Shown here piece by piece: positions 188-18,845 of a stretch of 39,100 bases of DNA; the first letter of the stretch is position 1, and every line of letters begins with the position of its first letter. The notes beneath the pieces were generated by a model. That model saw only the letters and a list, made by a program, of their open reading frames with translations. It had not been told where the DNA came from and did no database searches. The stretch is from Micavibrio sp. TMED27 (GTDB lineage Bacteria; Pseudomonadota; Alphaproteobacteria; Micavibrionales; Micavibrionaceae), in assembly GCA_002167715.1 (NCBI GenBank), contig NHCG01000010.1, positions 405,153-444,252 of the forward strand, given 5' to 3'. The translations under genes were made by a program, and so were the position numbers.

Positions 188-267
<80 letters not shown>

Positions 268-1758: not shown

Positions 1759-1787
1759 TTGACAGATGGAGTTTTTGGGCGTAAAAA
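1759..1787 (+). promoter_or_regulatory. Putative sigma-70 promoter of the hsd operon
   Basis: TTGACA at 1759-1764 is a perfect -35 box, followed after 17 bases by TAAAAA at 1782-1787. Transcription would start near 1794, practically at the ATG of the first gene at 1795, which lacks a Shine-Dalgarno sequence. This predicts a leaderless mRNA. Confidence 0.5.
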
Positions 1788-1794
1788 CTGCATT

Positions 1795-2388
1795 ATGAGA
1801 TTTAAAACAATAAATTTAGAAGCTGTTACAGACGTTAAGACGGGCTTCCCGCTGAGAAAAGCTGCAAAGGAAGACTTTTCTGGCGATGCTGTGTTGGTGC
1901 AGATGAAGGATGTTGATCCGCTTGCAGGAGTGAACTGGAGCGATGCTATCAAAATAAATACAAAAGGCAGCCGCAATCCTGATTGGCTTAAAGAGGATGA
2001 CGTACTGTTTGTGGGGCGCGGCAGTCGTTTTTTTGCTGTTCACGTATCCTCTGTGAAAAAACATAGCGTTGCGTCCCCTCATTTCTACGTTTTAAGAAAC
2101 AAGAAGGCAGAAAAAATATTGCCTGAATTTTTAGTCTGGTTTTTAAATAGTACGCCAGCACACAAATTTTACACGTCCAATCAAGAAGGCTCGGCGCTCC
2201 CCTATCTGAGTCGGAAAACATTAGCGGCCTTGCCGATAAAATTACCAGACCTCGAAACACAAAAGAAAATCATAAACATATCTAAATGCTGGAATCATCA
2301 GCGACAATTACTGGAAGAACTTACCGAGCAAAAAGACGCATATATAAATGCGTTGCTCGAACAAACCTTAGAAGGAGAAGCAGCATGA
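1795..2388 (+). CDS. Half-size type I restriction specificity subunit (single-TRD HsdS)
   Basis: This 197-residue protein resembles one half of an HsdS subunit: one target-recognition domain followed by a helical dimerisation segment. The visible HsdS-like features are the stretch with GSALPYLSRKTLAALPIKLP, where such proteins move from TRD to the conserved region, then the L-E-T-Q-K-K-I start of the helix, ending in coiled-coil-like residues. Normal HsdS has two such halves in about 400 residues, as the second copy at 3886 does. I chose ATG 1795 rather than upstream TTG 1759, which is itself the -35 box. The stop overlaps the hsdM start as ATGA. It could act as a homodimer giving a second, palindromic specificity, or be a truncated leftover; it has no internal stops, and its coupling to hsdM favours function. 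Confidence 0.72.
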   Translation: MRFKTINLEAVTDVKTGFPLRKAAKEDFSGDAVLVQMKDVDPLAGVNWSDAIKINTKGSRNPDWLKEDDVLFVGRGSRFFAVHVSSVKKHSVASPHFYVLRNKKAEKILPEFLVWFLNSTPAHKFYTSNQEGSALPYLSRKTLAALPIKLPDLETQKKIINISKCWNHQRQLLEELTEQKDAYINALLEQTLEGEAA

Positions 2389-3896: not shown

Positions 3897-5091
3897 TGGA
3901 TGGGAGACAAAAAATATAGGCGAATTCATGGACTTCAAAAACGGGGTGAATGCTGACAAAGATGCATATGGAGAAGGTGTTAAATTTGTAAATGTCATGG
4001 ATGTTTTTGACCACGATTTTCTATTGCAAACAAATGTTCGCGGTTCAATGACAGCTAATGAAAAACAACAAAAAGAATACTCTGTCTGTCATGGAGATAT
4101 TTTGTTTAATCGTACCTCCGAAACTGAAAATGACATTGGAATGACAGCCGTTTATATGGATGATCAGCCTATTATTTTTGGAGGATTTGTAATTCGCGGA
4201 AGGCAGAAGAACCCAGTTTTATTACCAGAATATGCAGGGTATTGTTTTCGCTCAAGCGCGGCAAGAAGGGAAATAGTTCGACGTGGACAAGGGGCTATTC
4301 GTACGAACATTGGCCAAAAAGATTTGTCTCTTGTACCTATTCTTGTGCCACCCAAGCTCGAGCAACAAGCCATCTCAGATGTTCTTTTAATGTGGGATAA
4401 AACATTAAAATCTACCAATAAATTGATCAAAGAAAAACAAATGCAAAAAAAGGCGTTGATGCAGCGCCTCCTCACGGGCAAACACCGCTTCCCTGAATTT
4501 GAAGGGGAGGAATGGACGACGCTAAAAGCTGATCAAATATTCAAAAGTTTTACAAAAAAGAGAAATGAGAATGAGCCTTTATTAGCAGTCATGCAAGATA
4601 TTGGTGTTGTACCACGCGACAGTCTAGACAGGCGCGTTGCCATGCCGGATGGCAGTACTGACAGTTATAAACTTATCGTTCCGGGTGACTTTGTAATAAG
4701 CTTGCGTTCATTCCAAGGTGGGCTCGAATATTCCAGATACAGGGGCATTGTTAGCCCTGCTTATACGATTTTGAAAAGCATTCGGCCTATCAATGATGAT
4801 TTCTATCGCCATTATTTTAAATCTTATGACTTTATTGGACATTTAGCCGTTGCAGTAATCGGAATTCGTGATGGAAAGCAGATAAGCTATGATGATTTTT
4901 CATTTATGAATATCCCTTGCCCAAGCGTGAAAGAACAACAAAAAATCGCCGCTGTTTTGAATGAAGCCGATAAGGAAATTGACCTTCTGACGCAAAAACT
5001 AGAAGGTTATGAGGAGCAGAAAAAAGGCCTGATGCAACAACTCCTCACAGGCAAAAAACGCGTCAAACTCGACCGTCAGGAGGCCGCATAA
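3886..5091 (+). CDS. hsdS: Type I restriction-modification specificity subunit HsdS (two TRDs)
   Basis: This 401-residue DNA-recognition subunit sets the target of the HsdM methylase and HsdR nuclease. TRD1 spans about residues 1-165 and the central conserved helix about 165-200, ending in A-L-M-Q-R-L-L-T-G-K. TRD2 spans about 205-345, and the distal conserved helix ends in G-L-M-Q-Q-L-L-T-G-K. The central and distal repeats are also alike in DNA (4446-4488 and 5020-5062), the usual substrate for TRD exchange. Start ATG 3886 follows AAGGAG at 3872-3877 and lies inside the end of hsdM. The stop overlaps the next ATG (TAATG). Length is normal. Confidence 0.93.
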   Translation: MQPDGWETKNIGEFMDFKNGVNADKDAYGEGVKFVNVMDVFDHDFLLQTNVRGSMTANEKQQKEYSVCHGDILFNRTSETENDIGMTAVYMDDQPIIFGGFVIRGRQKNPVLLPEYAGYCFRSSAARREIVRRGQGAIRTNIGQKDLSLVPILVPPKLEQQAISDVLLMWDKTLKSTNKLIKEKQMQKKALMQRLLTGKHRFPEFEGEEWTTLKADQIFKSFTKKRNENEPLLAVMQDIGVVPRDSLDRRVAMPDGSTDSYKLIVPGDFVISLRSFQGGLEYSRYRGIVSPAYTILKSIRPINDDFYRHYFKSYDFIGHLAVAVIGIRDGKQISYDDFSFMNIPCPSVKEQQKIAAVLNEADKEIDLLTQKLEGYEEQKKGLMQQLLTGKKRVKLDRQEAA

Positions 5092-5549
5092 TGTTAGTTT
5101 TAGGATTCAGAACCTCACCTACCGAAGTGCGTTATGCTTTGCTTGAGATTGATGGGCAGGATGCAACTTTCACAAACGCAAATGGTGAAAACCGCCTTAA
5201 ATTCCCGAATGGTATGACAACAGCGGATCAAAAACTGCCGTGGCTGCATAGCGAATGTGAGCGTATTTTACGCCAGAATCAAAATATCGAAGGCGTTGTT
5301 ATCAAAACCAGTGAGTACGGCAGAAGAAGTGAAACCGCCAATGTTCGCTTGGCCACATACATGGAAGGCGTACTTATTAATTTAGCGGGACAAAAAAATA
5401 TTCCGTTGTCAGTAAAAACTTATGCCTCATTAGGGACTAGTAGGAGTGCCGTAAAAGCTTTTGCAGCAGCAAAGGCAGGGCAAAGTCAAACAATATGGAA
5501 CGAGCAAATGGCTGATGCTGTCGCGGCGGCTTGGGCTGGGAGGAATTAG
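5091..5549 (+). CDS. Small RNase H/RuvC-fold-like protein of unknown function
   Basis: 152 residues. The pattern of strands and helices resembles the RuvC/RNase H-like fold: an N-terminal strand-turn-strand (M-L-V-L-G-F then R-Y-A-L-L-E-I-D), a central V-V-I-K-T-S strand and a C-terminal helix with D-A-V-A-A-A-W-A-G, as in RuvC-like proteins. Overall shape recalls the DUF3010 family, but I see no DNA-level proof. The first-strand Asp usual in active RNase H enzymes is absent (G-F-R-T), so catalysis is doubtful. It is translationally coupled to hsdS (TAATG), and its last codons hold the kinase ribosome binding site. Context suggests a partner of the kinase or of the restriction complex; this is inference. 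Confidence 0.6.
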   Translation: MLVLGFRTSPTEVRYALLEIDGQDATFTNANGENRLKFPNGMTTADQKLPWLHSECERILRQNQNIEGVVIKTSEYGRRSETANVRLATYMEGVLINLAGQKNIPLSVKTYASLGTSRSAVKAFAAAKAGQSQTIWNEQMADAVAAAWAGRN

Positions 5550-5551
5550 AT

Positions 5552-6625
5552 TTGTATTTTAACCCGCCTCTAACTCCAAATGAGCAGCTTTATAAGTTTA
5601 CCCTGATTAATCGTATAGGCACGGGGAATTTTGGAGAAATATGGCTCGCGCAGGATGAAAGTATTAATCGGCAGGTAGCCGTGAAAATATTAGACGCATC
5701 TCAAGCCGCGATTGATGAACATATTCAAGAGGCGCATCGTGGCAATCTTATGGATCATGCTAATTTAGTAAAAATTCATTATGCAGATGCCACTACCCGC
5801 AAAGGAACGAATTTATTCTTAATCGCTATGGATTATCAACCAAATGGCTCTCTTATTCAAGGTTTGAACGCAGGGAACTTTATGCCAATAAAAACTGTAT
5901 TGCCAATAATATCAGATGTACTGCGCGGCTTAGAATTTCTTCATGAGCAAGATCTTTATCACAATGATATTAAGCCTAAAAATATATTACTTGGAAACAA
6001 CGGAGAAGGTATATTAACGGATTACGGTATTAGCGTAGCTGGAGCAGGACAAGCATATGTTACGCCCACGGGTGCTTATAAGCTGCATACCGCGCCAGAA
6101 TTAATTGCCAATAATCATATTAATGGCCAAACGGATATTTATCAGGTTGGCTTAACGATGTTTAGACTTTTGAACGGCATTGGAAAGCTGCGCGATAAAC
6201 TTAATTCATTAGGTGAAGCCGGATATTACCAAAAAGTAGAAAGCGGCAATCTGATCCAACCTAAAGATTACCTGCCGTTCATTCCTCGTAATTTAAAATC
6301 GATCATTACAAAAGCTACGCATGTTGATCCTACGCAGCGTTTTCAAACACCCTTAGAAATGCGACGAAGACTTGAAGGCCTTAACTATGTCGGTGACTGG
6401 ACGTACACGCCCAACGGTAATTACATGGGGCACTGTGTGGCAAATGAATATCGATTTGAAGAAAGCCGCGTTGGTAATGGTACATATAATTTTACAGCTT
6501 TTAAGAAAAATAAAAGTTCGCAAAATGAGAGGCGTATGGGGGTTCTGTGCAAACAACGAGCAACAAAGCAGGAAGTTGAAAAAGCGAAAAGAGACTTTAT
6601 GCAGAAGATTGTAATGGGGAGTTAA
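5552..6625 (+). CDS. Serine/threonine protein kinase inside the restriction operon
   Basis: A 357-residue Hanks-type kinase. The glycine loop is GTGNFGE at 23-29, the ATP-binding lysine is in VAVK (K45) and the helix C glutamate is about E60. The catalytic loop is HNDIKPKN (D139, K141, N144), non-RD because Asn replaces Arg; DYG at 157-159 replaces DFG, and an A-P-E motif follows. All catalytic residues are present, so it is probably active. After the kinase domain (to about 275) comes an unrecognised 80-residue tail rich in Lys/Arg. There is no ATG before the glycine loop. TTG 5552 follows GGGAGG at 5538-5543 with 8-base spacing; TTG 5531 is the alternative. No membrane or PASTA segments, so it is cytosolic. 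It likely phosphorylates a neighbouring defence protein. Confidence 0.88.
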   Translation: MYFNPPLTPNEQLYKFTLINRIGTGNFGEIWLAQDESINRQVAVKILDASQAAIDEHIQEAHRGNLMDHANLVKIHYADATTRKGTNLFLIAMDYQPNGSLIQGLNAGNFMPIKTVLPIISDVLRGLEFLHEQDLYHNDIKPKNILLGNNGEGILTDYGISVAGAGQAYVTPTGAYKLHTAPELIANNHINGQTDIYQVGLTMFRLLNGIGKLRDKLNSLGEAGYYQKVESGNLIQPKDYLPFIPRNLKSIITKATHVDPTQRFQTPLEMRRRLEGLNYVGDWTYTPNGNYMGHCVANEYRFEESRVGNGTYNFTAFKKNKSSQNERRMGVLCKQRATKQEVEKAKRDFMQKIVMGS

Positions 6626-8035
6626 ATGGCAAGACTTTTTCCAAACGATATTGGCACACGTCCGAGCGGTAAGCTTTTGTTCGAAGAAGTGCACCCAAAC
6701 TATAACGAGGTCTATTATATTCCCCCTGACGTTGCGTTAGCGGAAGCTGGCCTAGACCCTGCAAAAGCAGAAAGTTATAAAAAGGGAATTTTGGATATTA
6801 ACGGCCAAAATGATTACGTCACAATCATTCCCATTAACACATTACCGACACATAAGGATTTTTTACAGGGAAAGTATGCAGACCTCCTGAGTATTACGCT
6901 TGATGGATTTGGATATGGAGGCGCTAAAACTGAAGATGAGGTAATTGACCTATTAGAAAATCTACCGTCTTGTTTTGTTAAAGATTATGATTATGGCCTT
7001 GGTCTTCGAAAGGATTATCGTTTTATCGTCGATATTTTAGAGGATTTAAATATACAAACTCTGGTCATTAGCAAAAAAGACAGCACCTCGATTGATGAAA
7101 AAGGAACTATTTGTACAATAAAGTATTCTGACTTTGAACAAATCCGTAAAACGATTGACCGTATCACGCGGGAAGCGAGGCAAGTCTCAAGTGAAGTTAA
7201 AAAAATATCAGCTCATAATGTGCTGGCATTTTTTCTAGAAGATGAGACAAAATACCCCCATAAGGACATTAGAAAGCAAGATGGTACGCTTGCTCGCCTG
7301 ATTGCAAAGTCATCACCCGTCTTACCTGTCCACTTATCTAAGGTGGAGCAAAGCGCAGCTATTGATCTCGTGAGCAGCAATAAAAGCAAAATGGCAAAAG
7401 ATCAGCCCGAAGCACTCGTAAAACTCCGCAATGATATTGATCTCGTAACATTAGAAAAACTTGTCCAGACCTATGAAGAGATGCTCGCCAAGAAGTTAAG
7501 TGAAGACCGTTGGCAAGCTCTGTTCAATGAAAATCCATTTATCCTCAATATGGCCTTTGGATGCCCCATTATAAAAATTCAGGATCAAGCGTATGTTGGT
7601 GGTAGAAAAATTTCTGGATCAGGGGAAAAGATTGCTGATTTCCTTGTGAAAAATAGCTTGAGCAATAATGCTGCATTAATTGAAATTAAAACACCATCAA
7701 CATCATTGCTAAATAAAACGTCTTATAGAGACGGAGTCTATGTTGCATCAAAAGATTTATCAGGATCGCTGAACCAAGTTTTGGATCAGAGGCTTAAATT
7801 TCAGCAAAATATATTTGCTATTAAGAACAATTCAAAGCTGTATGCCATGGAAACCTACCATGTGCAAGGGTTCTTGATTGTAGGCACAATGCCTACTGAA
7901 GATGATAAGATTAAGTCTTTTGAGCTTTTTAGAGGGAATTCAAAAGATATAACAATTATTACATTTGATGAATTATTAGAAAAGTTGAAACATCTGCATG
8001 CTTTTCTATCGCCTAATTTGATGGAGAAGAATTGA
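6626..8035 (+). CDS. Shedu-like PD-(D/E)XK nuclease (DUF4263)
   Basis: 469 residues. The C-terminal third fits the DUF4263 domain of the Shedu (SduA) anti-phage nuclease. A W-Q-A-L-F-N-E-N-P-F-I-L entry helix is followed by the catalytic A-D-F (D338) and I-E-I-K (E353, K355), the PD-(D/E)XK signature, then strands and a Q-L-D-Q-R-L-K-F-type helix region. The N-terminal 300 residues are not recognised and probably sense or regulate; an R-I-T-R-E-A helical segment links them. ATG 6626 follows the kinase stop directly, with GGGGA at 6616-6620. Its TGA overlaps the hsdR ATG. Placement between kinase and hsdR suggests an additional nuclease effector, perhaps gated by phosphorylation. Confidence 0.8.
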   Translation: MARLFPNDIGTRPSGKLLFEEVHPNYNEVYYIPPDVALAEAGLDPAKAESYKKGILDINGQNDYVTIIPINTLPTHKDFLQGKYADLLSITLDGFGYGGAKTEDEVIDLLENLPSCFVKDYDYGLGLRKDYRFIVDILEDLNIQTLVISKKDSTSIDEKGTICTIKYSDFEQIRKTIDRITREARQVSSEVKKISAHNVLAFFLEDETKYPHKDIRKQDGTLARLIAKSSPVLPVHLSKVEQSAAIDLVSSNKSKMAKDQPEALVKLRNDIDLVTLEKLVQTYEEMLAKKLSEDRWQALFNENPFILNMAFGCPIIKIQDQAYVGGRKISGSGEKIADFLVKNSLSNNAALIEIKTPSTSLLNKTSYRDGVYVASKDLSGSLNQVLDQRLKFQQNIFAIKNNSKLYAMETYHVQGFLIVGTMPTEDDKIKSFELFRGNSKDITIITFDELLEKLKHLHAFLSPNLMEKN

Positions 8036-11000
8036 TGGCCGCCAACGAATATTTAGAAGATTTATCATCACTCTTACCTGCGCTTCAGTTGTTGCAGAAT
8101 TTGGGCTATGAGTATTTAACGCCATCTGAAACGGTAGCACTGCGTGGCGGAAAAAGGTCAGGTTGTGTACTTGAAGAAGTGCTGAGCAAACAGCTTGCCA
8201 AGATCAACGGCATAGAATTTAAGGGCAATAAACACACTTTTTCAGATGCTAATATCAAAAACGCCGTACAATCCATCTCGCACATGCCATTTGATGCACT
8301 GATGACAAACAACGAGGCGATCTATGATCTTCTGACGCTCGGCAAGTCCTTTGAGCAAACAATAGACGGTTATGCGCGCTCTTATTCACTGCAATATATC
8401 GACTGGAAGAACCCAGAGAATAATGTCTTTCATGTAACGGATGAATTTGAGGTTGAACGCCGTAACAGCAAACAAACGCGCCGCCCAGACATTGTTGTTT
8501 TTGTGAATGGCATTCCGTTGGTTGTTATAGAATGCAAGCGCCCCGATTTGAAAGACGCGGTTAAGGAGGCAATTAGCCAACAACTTCGCAATCAAAAATC
8601 AGATGAAATTCCTGAACTATTTACGTTTAGCCAGATATTAATGGCTCTAAGCCAAAATCAGGCGCAGTACGCGACCACCGATACGCCCTTAAAGTTTTGG
8701 TCGGTCTGGAAGGAAGACGAAGAAAGCCATGAAGAGCCTGAGCTTCGCAAGCTTATCAATGCATCGTTGCCCACCAAAGCGCAGGCTAGAATGTACTCGG
8801 AACGCAACGAGCATCAACGCCGCTATATGGAGAATATTGCAAGCTCCGGTGAGCGCCTTGTATCCCCACAAGACTGGGCGATATATAATATGCTGCGCAA
8901 AGAGCGGTTATTAAAGCTCATTTATCAATTCATTGTCTTTGATAATAAGGTAAAAAAGATATGCCGTTATCAACAGTTTTATGCGATTAAGGCGACACTA
9001 GATCGTGTAACCAAACAGCGGGGTGATAGCACCCGCCAAGGTGGTGTTATCTGGCATACTACTGGGTCAGGAAAATCCCTCACAATGGTAATGCTGGCGA
9101 AGGCACTTGCCTTGGAACCTTCCATTGAAAATCCTAAAGTAATATTGGTTACTGATCGTGTAGACCTCGACGATCAAATTTACGACACATTTAAAAACTG
9201 CGGGAAGCAGGTGAAACAGGCTGAGAGTGGTGAGCATTTGATTGAATTAGTTCACTACAATAAAGCCAACATCATCACTACAATCATCGATAAATTTGAA
9301 TCAGCATCAAAGAAAAAGAAAATCCGTGATGAGAGTACTAATATTTTCGTTTTGGTTGATGAAAGCCATCGCTCACAATACGGAATTGCTCACGCTAAAA
9401 TGCATAATGTATTCCCAAATGCCTGCTATATAGGCTTTACAGGAACACCTCTTTTAAAAAAGGAGAAAAGCACGGCAAATAAATTCGGGGGCTTTATTCA
9501 TAAATACACCATGAATCAAGCTGTTAAAGATGGAGCGGTTGCCCCTCTTATTTACGAAGGCCGCATGTCGGAGCTTCATGGAGATAAAGATCAGCTTGAC
9601 CGTTGGTTTGAGCGCATAACTTCTAATCTTACCGATGAGCAAAAACTAGATTTAAAAAAGAAATTTAAACGCGAAGAAGAGCTTAGTAAATCTGATGCTC
9701 GTATAGCTGAAATTGCATACGATATCGCTGAGCATTATAAATCTACGTATCGCGGAACAGGGAAGAAAGGGCAGCTAGCCGTTTCCAGTAAAGAAATGGC
9801 TATTAAATACCTCCGACTTCTCGAAGGTTTTGGAGTAGAAGTATCTGTTATAGTTTCGTCGCCAGATACAAGGGAGGATCATACTTCTACCGATGAGTCT
9901 GAAATCCCTGCTGTCCAACAATTTTGGAAGGCCATGATGGCAAAATATGGCAGCGAAAAAAAATATGCCGATGCCGTTACTGATGCATTCAAATATTCAG
10001 ACACACCGGAAATAATAATCGTGGTTGATAAGCTGCTTACGGGGTTTGATGCTCCGCGCAATAGTGTTCTGTATATTGATAAGCCGCTTAAAGAACATAA
10101 TATTTTGCAGGCTATTGCTAGGGTTAACCGTTTACATGAGGGCAAAGAATACGGCCTCATTGTTGATTATAGGGGTATCTTTGGGGAGTTGAATGAAGCT
10201 ATCGACACTTATCGTGCACTAGAGCGCGAAGGCTTTGATCCTGAGGATATTGAAGGCACTATCACGGATGTTACTGAAGAGATCAAAAAACTTCCGCAAC
10301 GGCATACAGATTTATGGCAGGTATTTAAGGAAGTTGAAAATAAAAACGATATTGAGGCACTTCAAAGGCATTTAGAGCCACTAGATGTTAGAGAGGAGTT
10401 CTATGAACATTTGAAAGAATACGCAAAAACACTACAACTTTCCTTGAGTAACTCCAAATTCCAAGATGAAACGCCTGAAGATAAAAAGAAAAAATATACT
10501 GATGATCTAAAGCGATTTTTAAATCTGCGCGCTGCAGTAAAGCAGCGCTATGCAGAGAGCATAGATTATTCCTCCTACGAACTTCAAATTAGAAATATGG
10601 TGAATAAGTATATTGGTGCAGAACAGGTCAAGCAACTTATTGCCCCTGTCAACGTATTTGACACAGAAAACTTTGAATTAGAACTAGAAAAAATTGAAGG
10701 CGAGGCCGCTAAAGCAGATGCTATAGCATCGCGCATGAAAAAAACCATCACGGAAAAGATGGATGAAGATCCGGCTCTTTACAAAAGATTGTCAGAATTA
10801 ATCGAGGAAGCAATAGCAGACCATCGCGCGCAAAGGCTATCTGATGCCCTATATTTGGAGCGCGTTAAAAACGCTCTTGATGAAATGAAAAAGCAAGGCA
10901 CTTCTTCTTTGCCAGTATCATTGGCTGGATACGAAGATGCCAAAGCATATTATGGTGTTATTCTGGATTATTTGCCATTAAGCAGCCCAACAAAAGCGAA

Positions 11001-11232
11001 AGAGGATATCGCCGCTGATATAGCGATCCGCGTAGAAGAGCTTATAAACACTCACAAGATTAGAGATTGGGTGCATAAGATCGATATTCAAAATGCTATG
11101 ATTAACTCCATAGAAGAGTATCTTTTTAGTATGAAGGGGCGTTATGACTTAAGCTTTAGCTTAGGGGAGCTTGATCAAGCCCTTGAGTTTTTGATCAATA
11201 CAGCGAAAAGGCGCGAGGGCTATGGAAACTAA
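8035..11232 (+). CDS. hsdR: Type I restriction enzyme subunit HsdR
   Basis: This 1065-residue subunit cleaves unmodified DNA after ATP-driven translocation by the HsdR2M2S complex. The N-terminal nuclease domain shows D152 in R-P-D-I and E166-C-K168 in V-I-E-C-K-R-P. The SF2 motor has Walker A H-T-T-G-S-G-K-S (about 341-348), D-E-S-H at 442-445 and T-G-T-P at 469-472. Motifs V/VI follow in L-L-T-G-F-D-A-P and Q-A-I-A-R-V-N-R. A C-terminal helical region of about 300 residues would contact HsdM. I chose ATG 8035 (MAANEYLED), just after TTG 8032, with GGAGAA upstream; it overlaps the preceding stop as TGATG. Full length. Confidence 0.95.
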   Translation: MAANEYLEDLSSLLPALQLLQNLGYEYLTPSETVALRGGKRSGCVLEEVLSKQLAKINGIEFKGNKHTFSDANIKNAVQSISHMPFDALMTNNEAIYDLLTLGKSFEQTIDGYARSYSLQYIDWKNPENNVFHVTDEFEVERRNSKQTRRPDIVVFVNGIPLVVIECKRPDLKDAVKEAISQQLRNQKSDEIPELFTFSQILMALSQNQAQYATTDTPLKFWSVWKEDEESHEEPELRKLINASLPTKAQARMYSERNEHQRRYMENIASSGERLVSPQDWAIYNMLRKERLLKLIYQFIVFDNKVKKICRYQQFYAIKATLDRVTKQRGDSTRQGGVIWHTTGSGKSLTMVMLAKALALEPSIENPKVILVTDRVDLDDQIYDTFKNCGKQVKQAESGEHLIELVHYNKANIITTIIDKFESASKKKKIRDESTNIFVLVDESHRSQYGIAHAKMHNVFPNACYIGFTGTPLLKKEKSTANKFGGFIHKYTMNQAVKDGAVAPLIYEGRMSELHGDKDQLDRWFERITSNLTDEQKLDLKKKFKREEELSKSDARIAEIAYDIAEHYKSTYRGTGKKGQLAVSSKEMAIKYLRLLEGFGVEVSVIVSSPDTREDHTSTDESEIPAVQQFWKAMMAKYGSEKKYADAVTDAFKYSDTPEIIIVVDKLLTGFDAPRNSVLYIDKPLKEHNILQAIARVNRLHEGKEYGLIVDYRGIFGELNEAIDTYRALEREGFDPEDIEGTITDVTEEIKKLPQRHTDLWQVFKEVENKNDIEALQRHLEPLDVREEFYEHLKEYAKTLQLSLSNSKFQDETPEDKKKKYTDDLKRFLNLRAAVKQRYAESIDYSSYELQIRNMVNKYIGAEQVKQLIAPVNVFDTENFELELEKIEGEAAKADAIASRMKKTITEKMDEDPALYKRLSELIEEAIADHRAQRLSDALYLERVKNALDEMKKQGTSSLPVSLAGYEDAKAYYGVILDYLPLSSPTKAKEDIAADIAIRVEELINTHKIRDWVHKIDIQNAMINSIEEYLFSMKGRYDLSFSLGELDQALEFLINTAKRREGYGN

Positions 11233-11950
11233 CCTTCACTCAGTAGAATATGGCAGATCGGAAATTATTTTTCATCTTAATTTCAAAGATCGAAAAACGT
11301 TGGCGATTCATGTTCATCCAAATTGCTCTGTTGTCGTTGATGCGCCGGATAACACGTCTTTAGACAAGATTAAAAATAGAGTTTTCAAGCGGGCTAAATG
11401 GATAAGGAAGCAGCAACGATATTTTGAGCGTTATCCACCTGCCTTGCCTGCTCGAAAATACATCTCTGGCGAGGCTTTTAGATATCTAGGCAGGCAATAT
11501 ACCCTAAAAATAGAACGGAGCATCATTGATGAAGTAAAGATGCTTAGGGGGCAGTTATATGTGTATGCGACATACACTAACTCAAAGCATGTAAAAGAGC
11601 TTGTTGATACATGGTATCGAAATAAAGCAAATAATGTCTTTGAGGAAAGATTTTCAGAATGTTTAAAACACGTGAGCAGAAAAATAGACATTGAGCATGA
11701 TGGAAATTTTTACTTGCGAGCCATGAAAATGAGATGGGGGAGTTGCTCTAAAAGGCACTTGATTACCCTAAATCCAGAATTGATTGGCGCGCCTAAAGAA
11801 TGCATTGACTATGTAATAGTGCATGAGCTTTGTCATTTATCTGAACATAATCACAGTAAGGCGTTTTACAAGTTGTTAGAAAAAGCTATGCCTGACTGGG
11901 AAAAACGTAAAGATAGGCTTGAAACATTGATGGAGCATCGTGCTGTTTAA
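11222..11950 (+). CDS. YgjP/DUF45-type zinc metalloprotein coupled to hsdR
   Basis: 242 residues with the H-E-L-C-H zinc motif followed by S-E-H-N-H, in the arrangement of the YgjP/WLM (M48-like, DUF45) family. Upstream is the family's R-W-G-S-C motif. It is cytosolic, with no signal peptide. It starts 11 bases before the hsdR stop, so it is translated with hsdR, and M48/YgjP-like genes commonly sit next to hsdR in type I loci. Its role there is not established; protease-based control of the restriction subunit is a plausible guess. It closes the defence operon; 195 bases without a gene follow. Confidence 0.85.
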   Translation: METNLHSVEYGRSEIIFHLNFKDRKTLAIHVHPNCSVVVDAPDNTSLDKIKNRVFKRAKWIRKQQRYFERYPPALPARKYISGEAFRYLGRQYTLKIERSIIDEVKMLRGQLYVYATYTNSKHVKELVDTWYRNKANNVFEERFSECLKHVSRKIDIEHDGNFYLRAMKMRWGSCSKRHLITLNPELIGAPKECIDYVIVHELCHLSEHNHSKAFYKLLEKAMPDWEKRKDRLETLMEHRAV

Positions 11951-12087
11951 TGCTTCTTGAAAAATATCTGTACTGACATCAAGAATCTCTATAAATAGTG
12001 GAAAGTCACTGGCCATAAAATATATCAATTTTCCGTAACCAAACCTTAATCCTCCGTTGTTATTCTAAAATAAGAAGAATGTTAATA

Positions 12088-12112
12088 GCGCACTTACGCA
12101 AACTCCGTTTGC
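12088..12112 (-). other. Candidate MOBQ-type origin of transfer (oriT)
   Basis: Read on the minus strand, the hairpin GCAAAC-GGA-GTTTGC is directly followed by GTAAGTGCGC. Inverted repeat plus TAA(A/G)TGCGC is the architecture of RSF1010/R1162-type oriT, nicked right after the final GCGC. It lies 34 bases upstream of a relaxase gene of the matching MobA family. Match judged by eye from the known family pattern. Confidence 0.65.
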
Positions 12113-12145
12113 AGCGCTAAAAACGGCACGGGGGATTACTGCGTA

Positions 12146-14398
12146 ATGGCAATTTATCATTGCTCGTTAAAAGTCTTTTCGAGGAGCGAAGGCCATTCGG
12201 CTGTTGCAGCCGCCGCCTATCGCTCCGGTTCAATCCTCAAGGATGAACGCGCAGGCAGAACCCACCGCTATCACAAACGTACAGGCGTGGCAGATACGTT
12301 TATTCTCGCGCCGCCTTCCGCCCCGAAAACCCTTTTATCCCGTGCCGTTCTATGGAATGCGGCAGAGGCCAGCGAAACCCGAAAAAATTCCCGCGTGGCG
12401 CGTGAGGTTATCTTGGCCTTGCCGCATGAGTTAAGTGATAAAGCCCGCGCGGAACTTACCCGCGATATGGGGCTTTATCTGCTTGAACGCTATCGCGTGG
12501 CTGTGGACGTTGCCATTCACAGCCCTTGCGAGGGTGATGGTCACGACCCTCGCAACCACCACGCCCATCTTTTGTTTACGACCCGCGAGATCACAAAAGA
12601 CGGGCTTGGCGCAAAGACCCGCATTCTCGATGACAAGGTTACTGGCCCCCAAGAAATCGAGGTCATTCGCGAAGTGTGGGAAACACTGGCGAATGATGCG
12701 CTGGAACGCGCAGGCTTCCCAGATGCGAAGATTGACCGGCGCACATTGGAGGCGCAGGGGCTAGACCGCATCCCCCAAACCCATGAGGGCAAGGCATCGA
12801 AGAATGCTAGCGCCTATCAAAGCCTTTTGGCCAAAGACTTCAAAAAGGCCGATAACGGTGATGATGATGAAGACGGTGAAGAAGGCTCAGGTGAAAAAAG
12901 CTCTTCTTCCAGTTCATCATCCGGCGGCGGAAGCGTCCATAATTTGCAAAGCAAAGTACGGGAAGACAGCCAAGGCCGTAAAATTGATTATCCCGCCCTT
13001 GATAAGCAACAAATCCGCAGCGCCTTTAATGCCGAGATCAAAGCCCTGAATGAAAAACGGGCAACGTTTGGCGATAAGCCCTTGAAGGAGCAAATCGCGC
13101 AGCTCGACAGGCTGATGGAACGGCTCGACAAACGGCTTGAAAAGCTTCAGCAGATTGAAACAAAAACCACCCTGAAATCAGTCATAAAGGAAACAATCGC
13201 CAGCGCTGTGAAACTGGCGGCGAATTTTTTAACGTGCCGCGTTGAAGTAAAAGCCAGCCTCAAACTCACCACAGAAGAAAAACACGCCCGCACAGAGCGC
13301 CAGTTTACCCGTTATGGCCGCGACTACCGCGAAGGGCTGCATAATCAGATCAAAGAGATGAAGCAGAATATTGTTCTTGTAGAGGCCAAGAAAGAGGACT
13401 TTCGCCGCTACAAGAGCTTTGTCGATAGGATCGACATGGAAGTGAAGAAACACGCCCCCTCAATTACAGCCCCATTTAAGGAGCAGGCCCCGCCCAAGCA
13501 GGTCACAGACAAAGAAATTAATCTCAAGCTTCACCTGAAAACCGAGATGATACGCGCCCAGATTCCGGCTGAATTTAAGCCACCCACGAAGGCAGCGCGT
13601 CAGACACTAACGGCATCGAGCGCCGTAAATAAAATCCCTCAGGCCAAGGGCGAGCCTATCAAGATTGATAAGACTGCTTTTGCTGCGCCGGAAGTAAAAC
13701 CAATAACGGCAGTTGAAACGCCTCGGGCAAAACCTGAAATAAAATTGCAGCCTTCTAAGGCAGAAGCGCCGCCGATCAAATCTGCCTTCGCAAGCAAAGC
13801 CGAAGTACAGCCAACACCAAAGGCGCAGGCCGAATATAAACAGCTCACGCCAGTCAGGATTAAGGCATTGGAGCAAGCGATAGCCCAGAGGCAAGCCACA
13901 AAGACACAAGCACCAAGGCCAGAAGATCGTAAAAGCTGGTTTACACCCGCAACAGAAAAAACAAAGCCCATGACGGATGCGATTGATCGGGCTATCAGGC
14001 AACAAAGAGCCGCCCAGCCTTCGCCGGAGCGCCCTAGTACCCAGACGCAGGAGAAATTTTCAAAGGCGCAAGAGCGCCCGCAAAGAACAACGACCTATAG
14101 CGAAGTTAAGGAAAAGACATGGGCTGAAGCCGAAACTAAACGCGCTAATGTTCCGCCGCAATATCGGGCAGAACCCTATGTGGCAAAATCCGAAACACCA
14201 AGGCAGGAAAACAGGGCAACGGATGAACCCAAGACTCAAACCCAAAGCGCATTCAGTAGCGCGGCAGAGGCAGAAAACGCCCCTAAAGCCGCAAACCCAC
14301 GAATGAGTGATACATTCAACATGAAATCAGGCTTTAATGCCGCCGCTGATAATGAGCCGGAGCAAAAGCCTGACGATGCGCCAGAGGCGGAGCTTTAA
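12146..14398 (+). CDS. mobA: MobA/MobL (MOBQ) relaxase with long disordered tail
   Basis: This 750-residue conjugative relaxase nicks oriT and pilots the strand. Tyr25 in A-A-Y-R-S-G sits exactly where RSF1010 MobA has its catalytic Tyr25. The metal-binding histidines lie in H-D-P-R-N-H-H-A-H (133-141). The relaxase domain covers about 1-215. After an acidic and poly-Ser stretch (about 230-260) come Lys/Glu-rich helices. The last 300 residues are a Pro/Ala/Lys/Gln-rich, probably disordered tail without a recognisable primase domain. Codon composition is more GC-rich than the neighbouring defence genes, hinting at separate ancestry. No mobB/mobC accessory gene is seen beside it. Confidence 0.9.
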   Translation: MAIYHCSLKVFSRSEGHSAVAAAAYRSGSILKDERAGRTHRYHKRTGVADTFILAPPSAPKTLLSRAVLWNAAEASETRKNSRVAREVILALPHELSDKARAELTRDMGLYLLERYRVAVDVAIHSPCEGDGHDPRNHHAHLLFTTREITKDGLGAKTRILDDKVTGPQEIEVIREVWETLANDALERAGFPDAKIDRRTLEAQGLDRIPQTHEGKASKNASAYQSLLAKDFKKADNGDDDEDGEEGSGEKSSSSSSSSGGGSVHNLQSKVREDSQGRKIDYPALDKQQIRSAFNAEIKALNEKRATFGDKPLKEQIAQLDRLMERLDKRLEKLQQIETKTTLKSVIKETIASAVKLAANFLTCRVEVKASLKLTTEEKHARTERQFTRYGRDYREGLHNQIKEMKQNIVLVEAKKEDFRRYKSFVDRIDMEVKKHAPSITAPFKEQAPPKQVTDKEINLKLHLKTEMIRAQIPAEFKPPTKAARQTLTASSAVNKIPQAKGEPIKIDKTAFAAPEVKPITAVETPRAKPEIKLQPSKAEAPPIKSAFASKAEVQPTPKAQAEYKQLTPVRIKALEQAIAQRQATKTQAPRPEDRKSWFTPATEKTKPMTDAIDRAIRQQRAAQPSPERPSTQTQEKFSKAQERPQRTTTYSEVKEKTWAEAETKRANVPPQYRAEPYVAKSETPRQENRATDEPKTQTQSAFSSAAEAENAPKAANPRMSDTFNMKSGFNAAADNEPEQKPDDAPEAEL

Positions 14399-14420
14399 TC
14401 ACGCCCCTCAAAATGGGTGT

Positions 14421-14486: not shown

Positions 14487-14497
14487 ATAGGCTCGAT

Positions 14498-15547
14498 ATG
14501 CAAGAACCCAAAATCACCGTTACCCAAGAGATCGTCAAACTCATCGCCGAGATTGACGAGTTCAAGGGCAAGTGGGAAGCCTTAAAAAATATGTCGCCGG
14601 AGCGACTTCGTCAACTTCGTAAAGTCGCAACAATTGAAAGTATTGGCTCATCCACGCGGATTGAGGGCGCGAAGCTAACGGATATGCAGGTTGAAACGCT
14701 GCTATCAAATTTAACCTCCACATCATTCAAGAGCCGTGATGAGCAGGAAGTGGCAGGATATGCCGAGGCTATGGACACAGTTTTTCAAGCCTATGAAGAT
14801 ATGACCATAACGGAAAACCATATCCGGCAACTGCACCAGATCTTATTACGGCATAGTAATAAGGATGAACGCCATCGAGGCGATTATAAAAAGCTTTCCA
14901 ACAATGTTGTGGCCTTCGATGAAAACGGAAAAGAAATCGGCGTTGTTTTTGAAACGGCTACGCCGTTTGATACGCCTCGCGAAATGGAAGAGCTGGTAAG
15001 TTGGGTCAATAAAGCCCTTGCAGAAAATAGCCTTCATCCGCTTCTTGCTATAGCCATTTTCACAGTCGTATTTCTAGCCATACACCCGTTTCAAGATGGA
15101 AATGGCAGGCTATCCCGTATCTTGACCACGCTTATGTTGCTGCGGGCTGGATATAGTTATGTGCCTTATGCTTCGCTTGAAAGTGTGGTCGAAGATAACA
15201 AGGATTTATATTACAAGGCACTGCGCCGCACGCAAACAACCCTCAAAGGCGACAAACCAGATTGGGAGCCGTGGCTTAGGTTTTTCCTGCGCTGCTTGAA
15301 AAAGCAAAAAGCAAACCTTGCAGCAAAAGTAGAGAAAGAAAAGGCATCGGATGATACCGTATTGCCTGCATTATCCGTGCAAATACTGGAACTGTTTAAA
15401 CAGCATGAGCGATTGAGTATTGCCGAGATTGTAGAGCATACCAGAGCGAACCAGAACACTCTGAAAGTGCGCTTGCGTGAGTTGGTCTCTTCTGGCCGCA
15501 TTCAGCGCCACGGTAAAGCGCGCGCGACTTGGTATGCAAAAAATTGA
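14498..15547 (+). CDS. Fic-domain AMPylation-type protein (class II)
   Basis: A 349-residue Fic protein, a family that usually transfers AMP from ATP to target proteins. The core motif H-P-F-Q-D-G-N-G-R is at 196-204, complete with catalytic His196. An N-terminal S-x-x-x-E-G inhibitory motif (S52, E56, G57) makes it a self-inhibited class II Fic. The last 80 residues (about 268-349) look like a winged-helix DNA-binding domain, so it may bind the repeats in its own promoter. A related 3' end survives at 18240-18482. No separate antitoxin is needed or seen. Start ATG 14498 has only a weak ribosome binding site. Confidence 0.92.
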   Translation: MQEPKITVTQEIVKLIAEIDEFKGKWEALKNMSPERLRQLRKVATIESIGSSTRIEGAKLTDMQVETLLSNLTSTSFKSRDEQEVAGYAEAMDTVFQAYEDMTITENHIRQLHQILLRHSNKDERHRGDYKKLSNNVVAFDENGKEIGVVFETATPFDTPREMEELVSWVNKALAENSLHPLLAIAIFTVVFLAIHPFQDGNGRLSRILTTLMLLRAGYSYVPYASLESVVEDNKDLYYKALRRTQTTLKGDKPDWEPWLRFFLRCLKKQKANLAAKVEKEKASDDTVLPALSVQILELFKQHERLSIAEIVEHTRANQNTLKVRLRELVSSGRIQRHGKARATWYAKN

Positions 15548-15614
15548 AGTTTTTACAGTTTTTTGAGGTTAAAAAATTATTTTATATTTAGATATATAAC
15601 TGCTAGTAACGCAT

Positions 15615-16016
15615 TTATTTTACATTCTTGTCGTAACGCTCTTGTGCCTTACTCATGGTGGGGTAATTTTTTTCCGCCCAGTCAGCAAGAGCTTTGACGG
15701 GCTCTATCAGAGTTTTCCCAAAAGGCGTTAAGGCATACTCTACGCTGGGGGGGGTGGTTGGAGTTACCGTGCGTGAGACTAACCCGCTGCGCTCTAGTTC
15801 ACGTAAGGTGCGTGTGAGCATGCGCTGCGAAATTCCATCGATGATTCGGCGCAATTCATTAAAACGTATTGGTGTATTACAAAGTGCACCTACAATCTGC
15901 ATGCTCCATTTATCACCGACAAGGCTTAACACCTCTCGAACACCACTTGGGCAGTTAGAGCCATGTTGAATTTTATCCTGAGTATTGGGGGGAACATCTG
16001 TGTGACCTAATGACAT
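15615..16016 (-). CDS. HxlR-family transcriptional regulator
   Basis: A 133-residue MarR-like winged helix of the HxlR type. The N-terminal Cys in S-N-C-P-S-G is the redox or electrophile-sensing cysteine position of relatives such as YodB and HypR. The helix-turn-helix follows in L-S-L-V-G-D-K-W-S and F-N-E-L-R-R-I-I-D-G-I-S, with the wing near S-V-E-Y-A-L-T. I chose ATG 16016 (M-S-L-G-H), preceded by AAGAAGG, over a GTG 45 bases upstream. It diverges from the azoreductase gene across a 95-base gap and very likely represses it, responding to quinones or similar electrophiles; this last point is inferred from family and context. Confidence 0.9.
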   Translation of the reverse strand: MSLGHTDVPPNTQDKIQHGSNCPSGVREVLSLVGDKWSMQIVGALCNTPIRFNELRRIIDGISQRMLTRTLRELERSGLVSRTVTPTTPPSVEYALTPFGKTLIEPVKALADWAEKNYPTMSKAQERYDKNVK

Positions 16017-16111
16017 TTTTGTGCCTTCTTGTAATTGTTTTTGGTGGTTACTATATTGCACTAAGTACCTATAACTACCTTAACTTAAATATATAGACAA
16101 GAGGCACATTC
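16017..16111. promoter_or_regulatory. Divergent HxlR/azoreductase promoter region
   Basis: The 95-base gap separates two divergent genes. AGTACCTATA and ACTACCTTAA lie head to tail around 16064-16084 with a 10-bp period, a possible HxlR operator. GAGGCAC before 16112 is the azoreductase ribosome binding site. No -35/-10 pair is clear-cut. Confidence 0.3.
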
Positions 16112-16717
16112 ATGACAAATATTCTTCACATTTCATCAAGCAGCGATATACAAAGCTCTGTCACACGTCAGATTGGCGCTGTCACGGTGGCTGATTTAAA
16201 AGCAGCCTCACCCGATGCTAAAATTATTGAGCGTGACTTGGTCAAAAACCCAGTTCCGCATATTAATCCGGAATTTTTGGGCGCGATGTTTTCTGGTCAG
16301 CCTGATGCCCCTGAGTTGAAACTTTCTGACGAGTTGATTGATGAGCTGTTTGCGAGCAATATTATTGTGTTCGAAGCCCCTATGTATAATTTTGGTATCC
16401 CATCTGTGGTTAAGGCATGGGTTGATCATATCGCGCGCGCCGGTAAAACATTCAAGTACGGAGAGAACGGTCCTGAGGGTTTTCTGACAGATAAAAAAGT
16501 CATACTCGTGCTTGGCAGAGGTGGCATCTATACAGAAGGACCAATGAAGGCTATGGAGCATCAAGAAACTTATATGCGCACCATTTTTGGATTTATTGGT
16601 ATCACGGATGTAGAGGTGATTTATATTGAAGGCGTAGCTTTCGGGCCGGAAAAAAAGGCCGAAGCACTTGCTGCAGCAACTGAGCGCGCTCATTCAATCA
16701 CGCAGAAGGCTGCCTAA
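16112..16717 (+). CDS. azoR: FMN-dependent NADH:quinone reductase/azoreductase
   Basis: A 201-residue flavodoxin-fold enzyme of the AzoR family, which reduces quinones and azo compounds by two electrons with NADH. The visible features are the N-terminal phosphate-binding S-S-S-S-D-I-Q-S-S segment for FMN, A-P-M-Y-N-F-G-I-P (about 90-98) and G-R-G-G-I-Y contacting flavin. The family dimer interface is kept, and length is typical. It is cytosolic. First of three co-directional genes with yceI and a LigB-type dioxygenase, divergent from hxlR. Together they look like a quinone/aromatic stress cassette. Confidence 0.92.
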   Translation: MTNILHISSSSDIQSSVTRQIGAVTVADLKAASPDAKIIERDLVKNPVPHINPEFLGAMFSGQPDAPELKLSDELIDELFASNIIVFEAPMYNFGIPSVVKAWVDHIARAGKTFKYGENGPEGFLTDKKVILVLGRGGIYTEGPMKAMEHQETYMRTIFGFIGITDVEVIYIEGVAFGPEKKAEALAAATERAHSITQKAA

Positions 16718-16746
16718 TTTAAAATAAGTTAAAAAGGAACTATCTT

Positions 16747-17331
16747 ATGTTACACACTACAAAAAACACGGCTCGTATTTTATTGGCCTCTGCGGCGCTT
16801 ACGTCATTTGCCTTGCCTGCGTTGGCGGCGGATACTTACACACTTGATCCGATGCATACGGCGGTCACATGGCATCTCAACCATTTCGGCTTTTCCAATC
16901 CGTCTGGTAAATTTATGAATGCGGATGGTGTTGTCGTTTTGGATCAGGAAAATCCCGCAGCGAGTAAAGTGAACATCACTATTCCTGTTGCTGCCATTGA
17001 TAGTGGCGTCCCCAAATTGGACGAACACCTCAAAAGCAAAGATTTCTTTGACGTAGAAGCATTCCCAACCGCTAGCTTTGTCAGTACCAAAGTTGAGGTT
17101 ACTGGTGAAAATACCGCTATTGTGCATGGGAATTTGACGCTGCATGGCGTGACCAAGCCAGTTGATTTGGATGTTAAACTTAATAAGCTTGGCGAGAACA
17201 TGATGAACAAAGAAACAGCCGGATTTAGCGCTACAGCTATGATTAAGCGCTCTGACTTTGGTATTGTGATGTACTTGCCAGCCTTGAGTGATGACGTGCG
17301 GCTTGATATTGAAGTTGAAGCGAATAAGTAG
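16747..17331 (+). CDS. yceI: YceI-family periplasmic lipocalin-like protein
   Basis: 194 residues with a clear signal peptide (cut about after A-L-A-A, residue 27). The YceI fold follows: Y-T-L-D-P-M-H-T-A-V-T-W, F-D-V-E-A-F-P-T-A-S-F and G-N-L-T-L-H-G-V-T-K-P are family landmarks. Members bind isoprenoid quinones or other amphiphiles in a beta barrel and are often induced by stress. AAAAAGGA precedes the ATG. The gene follows azoR by 29 bases and precedes the dioxygenase by 10, so they are probably cotranscribed. Confidence 0.92.
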   Translation: MLHTTKNTARILLASAALTSFALPALAADTYTLDPMHTAVTWHLNHFGFSNPSGKFMNADGVVVLDQENPAASKVNITIPVAAIDSGVPKLDEHLKSKDFFDVEAFPTASFVSTKVEVTGENTAIVHGNLTLHGVTKPVDLDVKLNKLGENMMNKETAGFSATAMIKRSDFGIVMYLPALSDDVRLDIEVEANK

Positions 17332-17341
17332 GAGCATTTTT

Positions 17342-18157
17342 ATGCATGCAAGACTCCCGACTTATTTCATCAGCCATGGCGGCGGGCCATGGCCATACAT
17401 GACTGGCAAGTTCCGCCATACGTTCGATGTGCTGGAAAAATCACTCGTCGATATGCGCGCTGAACTCCACGATAAGCCAAAAGCGATTCTGATCGTTTCT
17501 GGACACTGGGAAGAAAAAGGTTTTGTAATTTCGTCTGGCGCAAAACCAAGTATGGTCTATGACTATCACGGCTTCCCGGAATATCTCTATCATATTACCT
17601 ATAATGCTCCCGGCTCGCCAGAATTGGCGAACCATGTGCAACAGTTGCTCCAAGAAAAAGGAATAGAGGCGTCGCTTGATCCTGAACGTGGTTACGATCA
17701 CGGTACCTTCAGCATAATGAAGCCGCTTTATCCAGATGAGGATATTCCCGTGGTCCAGATTTCGTTAGATGCTAGCTATGATCCTGATCTGCATCTTAAT
17801 CTCGGCCGGGCGCTCGCCCCATTACGTGACGAAGGTATTTTAATTATCGGCAGTGGCCTTAGCTACCATAATTTGCCAGCCATGCGGGGCACTAGCGGTT
17901 ACGAGCCCTCACGTCATTTCGACGCATGGCTACAGGAGACTCTGGTTCATTCGCCATCAGATAAGCGCACAGCACGTTTGATCTCATGGGAGTTGGCCCC
18001 CGCCGCGCGTGAGGCCCATCCAACTGAAGATCACCTCATTCCGCTATTGGTGGTGGTTGGTGCTGCGGAAAATGAGCCGGGTGCCACGACCTATCATCAG
18101 AAAGATTTCGCAGGCGGACTTACGGCATCGAGTTTTCGCTTCGGACACGCCCCTTAA
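17342..18157 (+). CDS. Class III extradiol (LigB/4,5-DOPA-type) dioxygenase, island copy
   Basis: A 271-residue LigB-superfamily enzyme that would open catechol-type rings with a metal ion. Metal/active-site motifs visible are I-S-H-G-G-G near the N-terminus, S-G-H-W-E-E, Y-D-H-G-T-F and G-S-G-L-S-Y-H-N. Start ATG 17342 follows TAGGAG; an in-frame ATG 54 bases upstream lies inside yceI and is unlikely. A second, more distant member is at 25646. Catechols are products of quinone reduction, so coupling with azoR makes biochemical sense, though the substrate is unknown. Confidence 0.88.
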   Translation: MHARLPTYFISHGGGPWPYMTGKFRHTFDVLEKSLVDMRAELHDKPKAILIVSGHWEEKGFVISSGAKPSMVYDYHGFPEYLYHITYNAPGSPELANHVQQLLQEKGIEASLDPERGYDHGTFSIMKPLYPDEDIPVVQISLDASYDPDLHLNLGRALAPLRDEGILIIGSGLSYHNLPAMRGTSGYEPSRHFDAWLQETLVHSPSDKRTARLISWELAPAAREAHPTEDHLIPLLVVVGAAENEPGATTYHQKDFAGGLTASSFRFGHAP

Positions 18158-18239: not shown

Positions 18240-18482
18240 TTAGGGTGCGTAAAAAGAAGAAAGCATGCAGCAAAAGTAGAGAAAGAAAAGGCGTCTGATG
18301 ATGCGGTCTTGCCTGCATTATTTGTGCAGACACTAGAACTACTTAAACAGCATGGTCTGCTGAGAATTTCAGATATTCTTGAACATACTGAAGCGAACCC
18401 GAACACGCTTAAAGTGCGCTTGCGTGAGCTTGTATCCCCTCGCCACGGCAAAGCTCGTGCGACATGGTATTTTTTAGTTTAA
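18240..18482 (+). pseudogene. Remnant of a second fic gene (3' end only)
   Basis: Translation in one open frame gives the last 80 or so residues of a Fic protein very like 15290-15547: A-A-K-V-E-K-E-K-A-S-D-D and N-T-L-K-V-R-L-R-E-L-V-S are identical. About four in five aligned residues match by eye, with a four-codon deletion. The Fic catalytic part, start codon and promoter are missing, so it cannot make a Fic enzyme. Homology begins near 18240, directly after the redox cassette. The cassette is thus flanked by two diverged fic 3' ends. Confidence 0.78.
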
Positions 18483-18796: not shown

Positions 18797-18845
18797 GCTC
18801 ATAACCTGAAGGTCGCAGGTTCAAATCCTGCTCCCGCAACCAATT
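18797..18845 (+). repeat. attR: orphan 3' half of tRNA-fMet
   Basis: This is the 49-bp partner of 219-267. It starts in the anticodon loop and ends past CCA but lacks the whole 5' half, so it is not a working tRNA. Its T stem reads GCAGG/CCTGC. It is probably the original chromosomal 3' end displaced by integration. Confidence 0.88.

Follow-up and report, generated by a model that had tools for sequence, protein, structure and literature searches.

A putative MOBQ transfer origin beside its relaxase on a tRNA-Met-integrated defence island of Micavibrio sp. TMED27

The RSF1010 relaxase MobA cleaves in vitro a substrate made up of a hairpin and, after it, GGTAAGTGCG/CCCTCCC; shortening the natural 10-bp stem to 6 bp leaves cleavage equally good (PMC4814116). 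As for integrative mobilisable elements (IMEs), Proteobacteria were, according to a 2017 review, still without a described canonical case (PMC5704250). The Mesorhizobium IMEs were reported after that review and include a traACD type as well as a MOBQ-carrying IME of WSM1284 (PMC8627217). In Micavibrio aeruginosavorus ARL-13, nine islands termed ICEs were reported, some of which have a tRNA, an integrase and mobA/L, and the authors state that a type IV secretion system is not in evidence in this strain (PMC3189940).

The window analysed here is a stretch of 39.1 kb of Micavibrio sp. TMED27 (assembly GCA_002167715.1, contig NHCG01000010.1, positions 405,153-444,252 of the forward strand). It contains a hairpin plus nic-site sequence that almost certainly serves as the transfer origin (oriT) of an integrated element. 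Our preferred reading, to which we assign a probability of about 0.9, is a canonical IME of ~18.6 kb that sits in the 3' end of a tRNA-Met gene and has this site as its oriT. Such a mechanism is already known; what is new is the element family, the accessory-free relaxase module, the cargo slot and the presence among relatives of a predatory bacterium. A testable transfer origin is now defined in a lineage of bacterial predators, and to the alphaproteobacterial IMEs the family adds cases in which the oriT is defined and defence genes occupy a cargo slot.

The hairpin, the nic core and the relaxase

On the minus strand of the window, a hairpin with the arms GCAAAC and GTTTGC around the loop GGA (12098..12112; GCAAACGGAGTTTGC when read from 12112 to 12098) runs with zero gap into GTAAGTGCGC (12097-12088), i.e. 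an inverted repeat lies directly 5' of the nic core, as expected of a MOBQ oriT. The core GTAAGTGCG/C (12088..12097, minus strand) matches the RSF1010 substrate given in PMC4814116, with TAAGTGCG/C being an exact match. Because the window site shares the plan of the RSF1010 substrate, the nick is predicted to fall between 12089 (G) and 12088 (C); the transferred strand would exit toward lower coordinates and the relaxase gene would enter last. The relaxase start codon, an ATG at 12146, lies 33 bases past the base of the hairpin and 57 bases from the predicted nick. A preliminary description of this DNA had placed a 6-bp minus-strand hairpin directly before a nic sequence and 34 bases from a relaxase with Tyr25; its letters, coordinates and tyrosine proved correct.

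The sequence GTAAGTGCGC was found once in the 39.1-kb window, as compared to 0.06 occurrences expected from dinucleotide shuffles. Matches with one mismatch were at chance level (3 found, 2.14 expected), and those at 15463 and 18114 were therefore discarded. Under a first-order Markov model, a 6-bp hairpin with a loop of 3-5 nt ending at a given site has a p of ~0.0009. The fold energy of the hairpin alone is unremarkable (z -1.88; 8/200 shuffles were equally good) and was dropped as weak evidence for an oriT. Because the hairpin alone is energetically not remarkable, the case for an oriT is built on the combination of hairpin and nic sequence together with their conservation. In viral contigs, the exact oriT pattern had 0 matches.

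The gene at 12146..14398 (plus strand) encodes a relaxase of 750 aa that scored 221.7 bits with the NCBIfam model MobQ (NF041496; cut-off 200), which places it in MOBQ, and matched Pfam MobA_MobL (PF03389) with an E-value of 3.5e-54. Among solved structures, it matched NES (PDB 4ht4, E 1.8e-19) and RSF1010 MobA (PDB 2ns6, E 1.5e-7). The HxH motif, H139-A-H141, aligns to NES and MobA and Tyr25 is present, so that the catalytic residues are in place. With TIGR02768, which represents Ti-type TraA (MOBQ2), the score was 207.6 bits, far short of the cut-off of 590.45 bits, and the match covered residues 1-221 only; the relaxase was not assigned to this type. In the remaining 530 residues, no Pfam family and no helicase or primase domain was recognised.

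The oriT of RSF1010/R1162 and its relaxase MobA (MOBQ1) resemble the window locus in that a hairpin stands directly before GTAAGTGCG/C, and in that the relaxases have aligned HxH motifs and a tyrosine. By contrast, the stem in the window is of 6 bp and has a different sequence; the bases after the nick read CTATTAA in the window and CCCTCCC in RSF1010; and the window locus is chromosomal and integrase-bearing, with no replication family found on the island and no accessory ORF seen. The shared nic core and relaxase class are what would be expected of an integrated plasmid derived from IncQ/RSF1010. However, no replication family was matched among the 17 island ORFs scanned, the match to MobA is weaker than that to NES, and a tRNA, an integrase and att repeats are present. 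Since an IncQ replication gene was absent among the scanned ORFs, the IncQ plasmid reading was rejected and is, in our view, barely credible.

A related relaxase was found by tblastn in 4,966 plasmid records, always at <60% identity. We fetched ten of the 40 matches listed (e.g. NC_021978, NZ_CP094850 and NC_014832), which are MOBQ plasmids of Alphaproteobacteria and others with a relaxase domain 50-56% identical to that of the window. As in the window, AAGTGCGCCC was present upstream of the relaxase in 10/10 plasmids, and a hairpin was present beside it in 8/10. The same core in all ten argues for placing the window site in the MOBQ class as a whole; the term RSF1010-like, used in the preliminary description, is thus apt for the MOBQ class in general and does not extend to IncQ plasmids, of which no trait was found. 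The bases after the nick differ, reading CCCTT in the MOBQ plasmids and mostly CT(A/G/C)TTAA in the element family.

Unlike the window, the plasmids have a small upstream ORF pointing away from the relaxase (10/10), and some of these ORFs are annotated as a mobilisation protein or TraD. In RSF1010, MobB and MobC are the accessory proteins. In the window, no ORF of at least 60 aa directed away from the relaxase was found within 700 bases upstream, and such an ORF was absent in 7/11 related loci tested. From these loci, the element family seems to be without the upstream accessory gene of MOBQ plasmids.

Conservation of the site among related relaxases

We compared the relaxase N-domain across the collected loci and merged the genes by their start, which gave 53 distinct starts; L035, which is the L010 gene truncated at the locus end, was left out of the counts. 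Upstream of each gene, 600 nt were scanned on the strand opposite the relaxase. Among the 33 distinct relaxases with at least 60% N-domain identity, AAGTGCG was present upstream in 32, and in 28 it is preceded, at a distance of exactly 2 nt, by a perfect hairpin with a stem of 5 bp or more. The loops of these 28 hairpins are 3-5 nt long and differ in sequence, and the nick lies 56-202 nt from the start codon. The five relaxases without a full hairpin are those of L037, L049, L050, L028 (4 bp) and L027 (one G-T pair in the stem); the lone exception to AAGTGCG is L037, in which the nic reads TAAGTGCAC. Among the 19 relaxases with <60% identity, AAGTGCG was found in 15 and a hairpin in 11. In several distant MOBQ genes, the stem sequence changes and the pairing is kept, e.g. 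ACAAAC/GTTTGT (L056), GCATTA/TAATGC (L111), ACAATC/GATTGT (L058) and CCAAAC/GTTTGG.

In 651,074 strand-bases from 20 loci, AAGTGCG occurred 52 times; thus, the chance of finding it in any one upstream stretch is <5%. At 16 of these 52 sites a hairpin of at least 5 bp ended 0-2 nt before the motif, and 15 of the 16 are just upstream of MOBQ relaxases, the other being an AT-rich chance match. We also aligned 29 sites chosen by a motif that fixes the hairpin arms and the nic core, which makes them informative for the flanks and the post-nick bases only: conservation of the flanks drops to 30-60% a few bases out, and the post-nick bases are mostly CT(A/G/C)TTAA. A homologous oriT, which the preliminary description had proposed to seek in other islands, is therefore present beside most of the close relaxases, and its reading of the site as an RSF1010-type oriT beside a MOBQ relaxase is upheld by this conservation.

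The site is intergenic, where hairpins are common, and could in principle serve the relaxase gene or the operon upstream as a transcription terminator or regulatory hairpin. However, no terminator-like site was detected at 11900-12300 on either strand, the hairpin and AAGTGCG stay together although their distance from the gene varies, and the core is also present at the ten plasmid MOBQ relaxases. For these reasons, the terminator reading was rejected, and we give it next to no weight.

Two of the collected loci are unusual. L037 contains at 1246-2856 a single ORF in which the N terminus of HsdM is joined to the C terminus of HsdR, a natural HsdM-HsdR fusion on a possibly decayed element. L058 contains two MOBQ relaxases (7965-9518 and 11806-13416) as well as one resolvase-like and one VirD4-like ORF recognised by eye, and a hairpin plus GTAAGTGCGCCC is found upstream of the first relaxase; this contig is filed under an archaeal MAG (Ca. 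Bathycorpusculum), in which it may be misbinned.

The island, its cargo and its probable movement

The island is bounded by tRNA-Met repeats. The integration target is a tRNA-Met (CAT) gene (188..264, plus strand) detected by ARAGORN and Rfam. attL (219..267, plus strand) comprises the last 46 bases of the tRNA and 3 further bases, and this 49-bp repeat is identical at 47/49 positions to attR (18797..18845, plus strand). Next to attL, the gene at 389..1609 (plus strand) encodes an integrase of the tyrosine recombinase type with 406 aa. Its scores are just below the cut-offs for PF00589 (24 bits; cut-off 27.1) and PF14659 (21.1 bits; cut-off 22.6), and two other genomes have homologues 95-98% identical to it next to tRNA-Met. 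Box II of this integrase reads YSLRH; in tyrosine recombinases, this box usually begins with His.

Between the integrase gene and the oriT, all genes described are on the plus strand. Type I restriction genes (1759..5091; Pfam, PADLOC) comprise a half-length HsdS (1759-2388), HsdM (2286-3896) and HsdS (3718-5091). They are followed by a small ORF of 152 aa without a match in Pfam, PADLOC or NCBIfam (5091..5549), a Ser/Thr protein kinase resembling PD-T4-6 (5531..6625; PF00069; PADLOC PD-T4-6, E 1.9e-39), the Shedu nuclease SduA (6626..8035; PF14082; PADLOC SduA, E 1.1e-161), HsdR, the motor/nuclease subunit of type I restriction (8032..11232; TIGR00348, PADLOC REase_I), and a YgjP-like metallopeptidase (11222..11950; PF01863, E 2.2e-58). 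The half-length HsdS, which lies between the integrase and HsdM and is present besides the full HsdS, could be a donor for specificity change.

Downstream of the relaxase, a Fic/DOC protein with a winged-helix C terminus is encoded at 14498..15547 (plus strand; PF02661, E 2e-18, and PF13412), followed at 15615..18157 by metabolic cargo (Pfam), i.e. an HxlR regulator on the minus strand and a Flavodoxin_2 protein, YceI and a LigB-type dioxygenase on the plus strand. A remnant of a second Fic gene (18251..18470, plus strand) is 75.5% identical in nucleotide sequence to 15299-15535 by self-BLAST; it resembles the 3' part of the Fic gene and sits just inside attR. Thus, the right end may have been assembled from two Fic-bearing elements. 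Just ahead of the Fic start codon, at 14420-14480, short direct repeats of ATCGGGTATA units were seen by eye and are possibly an operator.

Of the 25 ORFs on the island that reach 100 aa, we scanned 17; the remaining eight overlap larger scanned ORFs. No gene for a coupling protein, a mating pore, secretion or plasmid replication was found among the 17. The element thus has the make-up of a canonical IME: an integrase and att repeats that bound it, its own relaxase and oriT, and no coupling or mating-pore genes among the scanned ORFs. It does not have that of an ICE, as no complete type IV secretion system was found on the element and the VirB genes of this genome lie on another contig. The statement in the preliminary description that type IV secretion genes are missing therefore holds for the island ORFs scanned and not for the genome. 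The Mesorhizobium IMEs are likewise alphaproteobacterial, lie next to tRNA genes (some at tRNA-Met) and mostly have tyrosine recombinases; they differ in size, and the traACD type has the accessory proteins TraC and TraD (PMC8627217).

From this arrangement, we propose that the integrase would recombine the tRNA repeats to give an excised circle. The MOBQ relaxase would bind the hairpin and nick the minus strand at GTAAGTGCG/C (12089/12088) by means of Tyr25, and the single strand, with the relaxase on its 5' end, would be passed on through a coupling protein and a secretion channel that another element provides. In the recipient, the strand would be recircularised and reintegrated at tRNA-Met. 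The interval from integrase to oriT would serve as a cargo slot in which defence systems are swapped.

A locus filed as Kordiimonas sp. MAG NAT158 (L036/L103) holds the same element, with an integrase 98% identical in amino acid sequence and a relaxase 87% identical in nucleotide sequence. Over 4,436 bp, L103 is 97.3% identical in nucleotide sequence to the right end of the window's island (14412-18845), and this homology, which includes the metabolic cargo at 15615..18157, stops exactly at the end of attR (18845). By comparison, nucleotide identity between the two genomes is 70.5-72.2% at their rpoB loci, and the 10.1 kb of chromosome to the right of the window's island has only five fragments of 65-72% in the L103 genome. 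Moreover, the slot between integrase and oriT in L036 contains a type IIG restriction enzyme, an Argonaute and SIR2, which are unrelated to the cargo in the window, and a PDC-M65 pair follows the relaxase. We take the near-identical right end in a distant host together with the replaced defence cargo as evidence of horizontal movement and cargo swapping; such a near-copy suggests excision and transfer in trans. The near-copy in L103 lies on a 21-kb MAG contig for which wrong binning is possible; its flanks differ from those of the window beyond the tRNA, which argues against contamination from a close relative without proving the host.

Other loci vary in the same interval. In L053, the slot contains an AAA/LmuB-like gene and a DUF4143 protein, and the integrase and the relaxase are 89% and 82% identical to those of the window, with rpoB at 75-77%. 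L045 has an MmeI-like enzyme as cargo, and the 1,073-aa cargo ORF of L057 matched no family. In G047, the relaxase (75%) and rpoB (75-76%) diverge alike and, therefore, movement is not shown there. In both L053 and G047, the divergence is thus closer to that of rpoB than in the near-copy. The right-flank gene was found in 2/57 genomes, namely the window's own and one in which it is at a contig start, and no empty site was demonstrable among them. In total, the att repeats, the near-copy in a distant host and the swapped cargo back the earlier proposal that the integrated island with its defence cargo is an IME.

An alternative is that a true oriT and relaxase are located on an immobile island, i.e. 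a vertically inherited fossil of past mobilisation. Decay is indeed seen around this family, as in the relaxase relic elsewhere in the window's genome (C9/C21), the Fic remnant by attR, and L037 with its nic TAAGTGCAC and HsdM-HsdR fusion ORF; moreover, many hosts are without a VirB4 match and G047 gives no sign of recent transfer. However, the ORFs of the relaxase (750 aa) and the integrase (406 aa) are uninterrupted, the att repeats are near-identical and the right end is 97% identical in a distant host. We consider the fossil unlikely and favour a mobilisable IME.

Repeats of tRNA ends were also observed at other relaxase loci. In L070, a 58-base repeat of a tRNA-Leu end is 95% identical, and the locus showed no homologue of the integrase found in the window; in L079, a 32-base repeat of a tRNA-Ser end is 91% identical, and the integrase is on the 5' side of the tRNA. 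At the tRNA-Ser loci L054, L078 and L118, the first 35-43 bases of the tRNA are repeated beyond the integrase, i.e. the integrase (L054:3144-4736, L078:7158-8713 and L118:12414-14081) is located between a repeat of the tRNA 5' end and the complete tRNA, which is the reverse of the layout at tRNA-Met.

Candidate helpers and Micavibrio hosts

In the genome of the window (2.50 Mb, 22 contigs), contig C7 carries genes for VirB9, VirB8, VirB6, VirB5 and VirB4, with an AcrB-type efflux pump not far from them, and contig C10 carries genes for a VirD4-type ATPase (coupling protein) and a PF03432 relaxase. These genes make a local helper possible, and the VirB region of C7 is a candidate helper element. 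The 20-kb contig itself (L062:1-20000) carries the VirB genes, an AcrB-family efflux cluster and, by eye, transposase-like ORFs. The island probably hitchhikes on the conjugation machinery of other elements; nothing in this analysis favours an IncP helper in particular.

Among 94 genomes including the window's, 17 have the relaxase, 13 have VirB4 and 7 have both. VirB4 was found in 7/17 relaxase-bearing genomes versus 6/77 others (Fisher p 0.0017). The excess persisted without the window's genome (6/16 versus 6/77, p 0.005), after removal of four distant relaxases (5/13 versus 8/81, p 0.016) and within the same family (5/12 versus 6/48, p 0.033). Because the genomes are related and a single VirB4 model was used, the co-occurrence is exploratory and suggestive only. 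With this model, VirB4 had no match in 10/17 relaxase-bearing genomes.

These observations bear on the idea that mobilisation depends on a VirB-type conjugative element residing in the same genome, not on visiting plasmids such as IncP. The parts on C7 and C10 and the co-occurrence above expectation speak for a resident mobiliser; however, the parts are split between two contigs and could stem from separate elements, more than half of the relaxase-bearing genomes are without a VirB4 match, and the test is exploratory. Altogether, we hold the resident mobiliser as a tentative possibility that falls somewhat short of an even chance.

The 24 named loci comprise 6 filed under Micavibrio, 9 under entries named Alphaproteobacteria bacterium and 3 under Pseudomonadota; the others are filed under Kordiimonas, Jannaschia, a Bacteroidia MAG, Peribacillus, an archaeal MAG and Rhodoferax. 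One genome of the same family as that of the window consists of a single contig of 2,481,983 bases (G056) and is presumed to be M. aeruginosavorus ARL-13. It has two relaxases of the window's family, each with a full oriT, and no match to the one VirB4 model used. According to the partial text of PMC3189940, the ARL-13 islands resemble the window's element in that some are flanked by tRNA and have integrases and mobA/L; they differ in that they were published as ICEs, with no oriT described there. Two oriT-relaxase modules and no reported type IV secretion system suggest that the name IME fits better. Any ARL-13 islands that carry this module would, therefore, be better termed IMEs. This reading offers an answer to a published oddity, i.e. 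ICEs in a genome for which no sign of type IV secretion was reported (PMC3189940). Among the titles and abstracts shown in a search of the open-access literature, no publication was found that names Micavibrio elements as IMEs with an oriT.

Taken more broadly, the loci may represent an IME family of Micavibrio relatives, published so far only as ICEs in M. aeruginosavorus, with an accessory-free relaxase, one oriT at different tRNAs and an exchange slot for defence systems, by which predators would trade immunity cassettes between distant hosts via borrowed VirB machinery. For this wider picture, we regard the odds as evenly balanced.

Finally, the window's genome contains a decayed relaxase relic on contigs C9 (L003/L006) and C21 (L004/L007). 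The two further relaxase-like matches in this genome were rejected as separate genes; the ends of C9 and C21 share 1,791 identical bases and hence overlap, so that one relic was read twice at overlapping contig ends.
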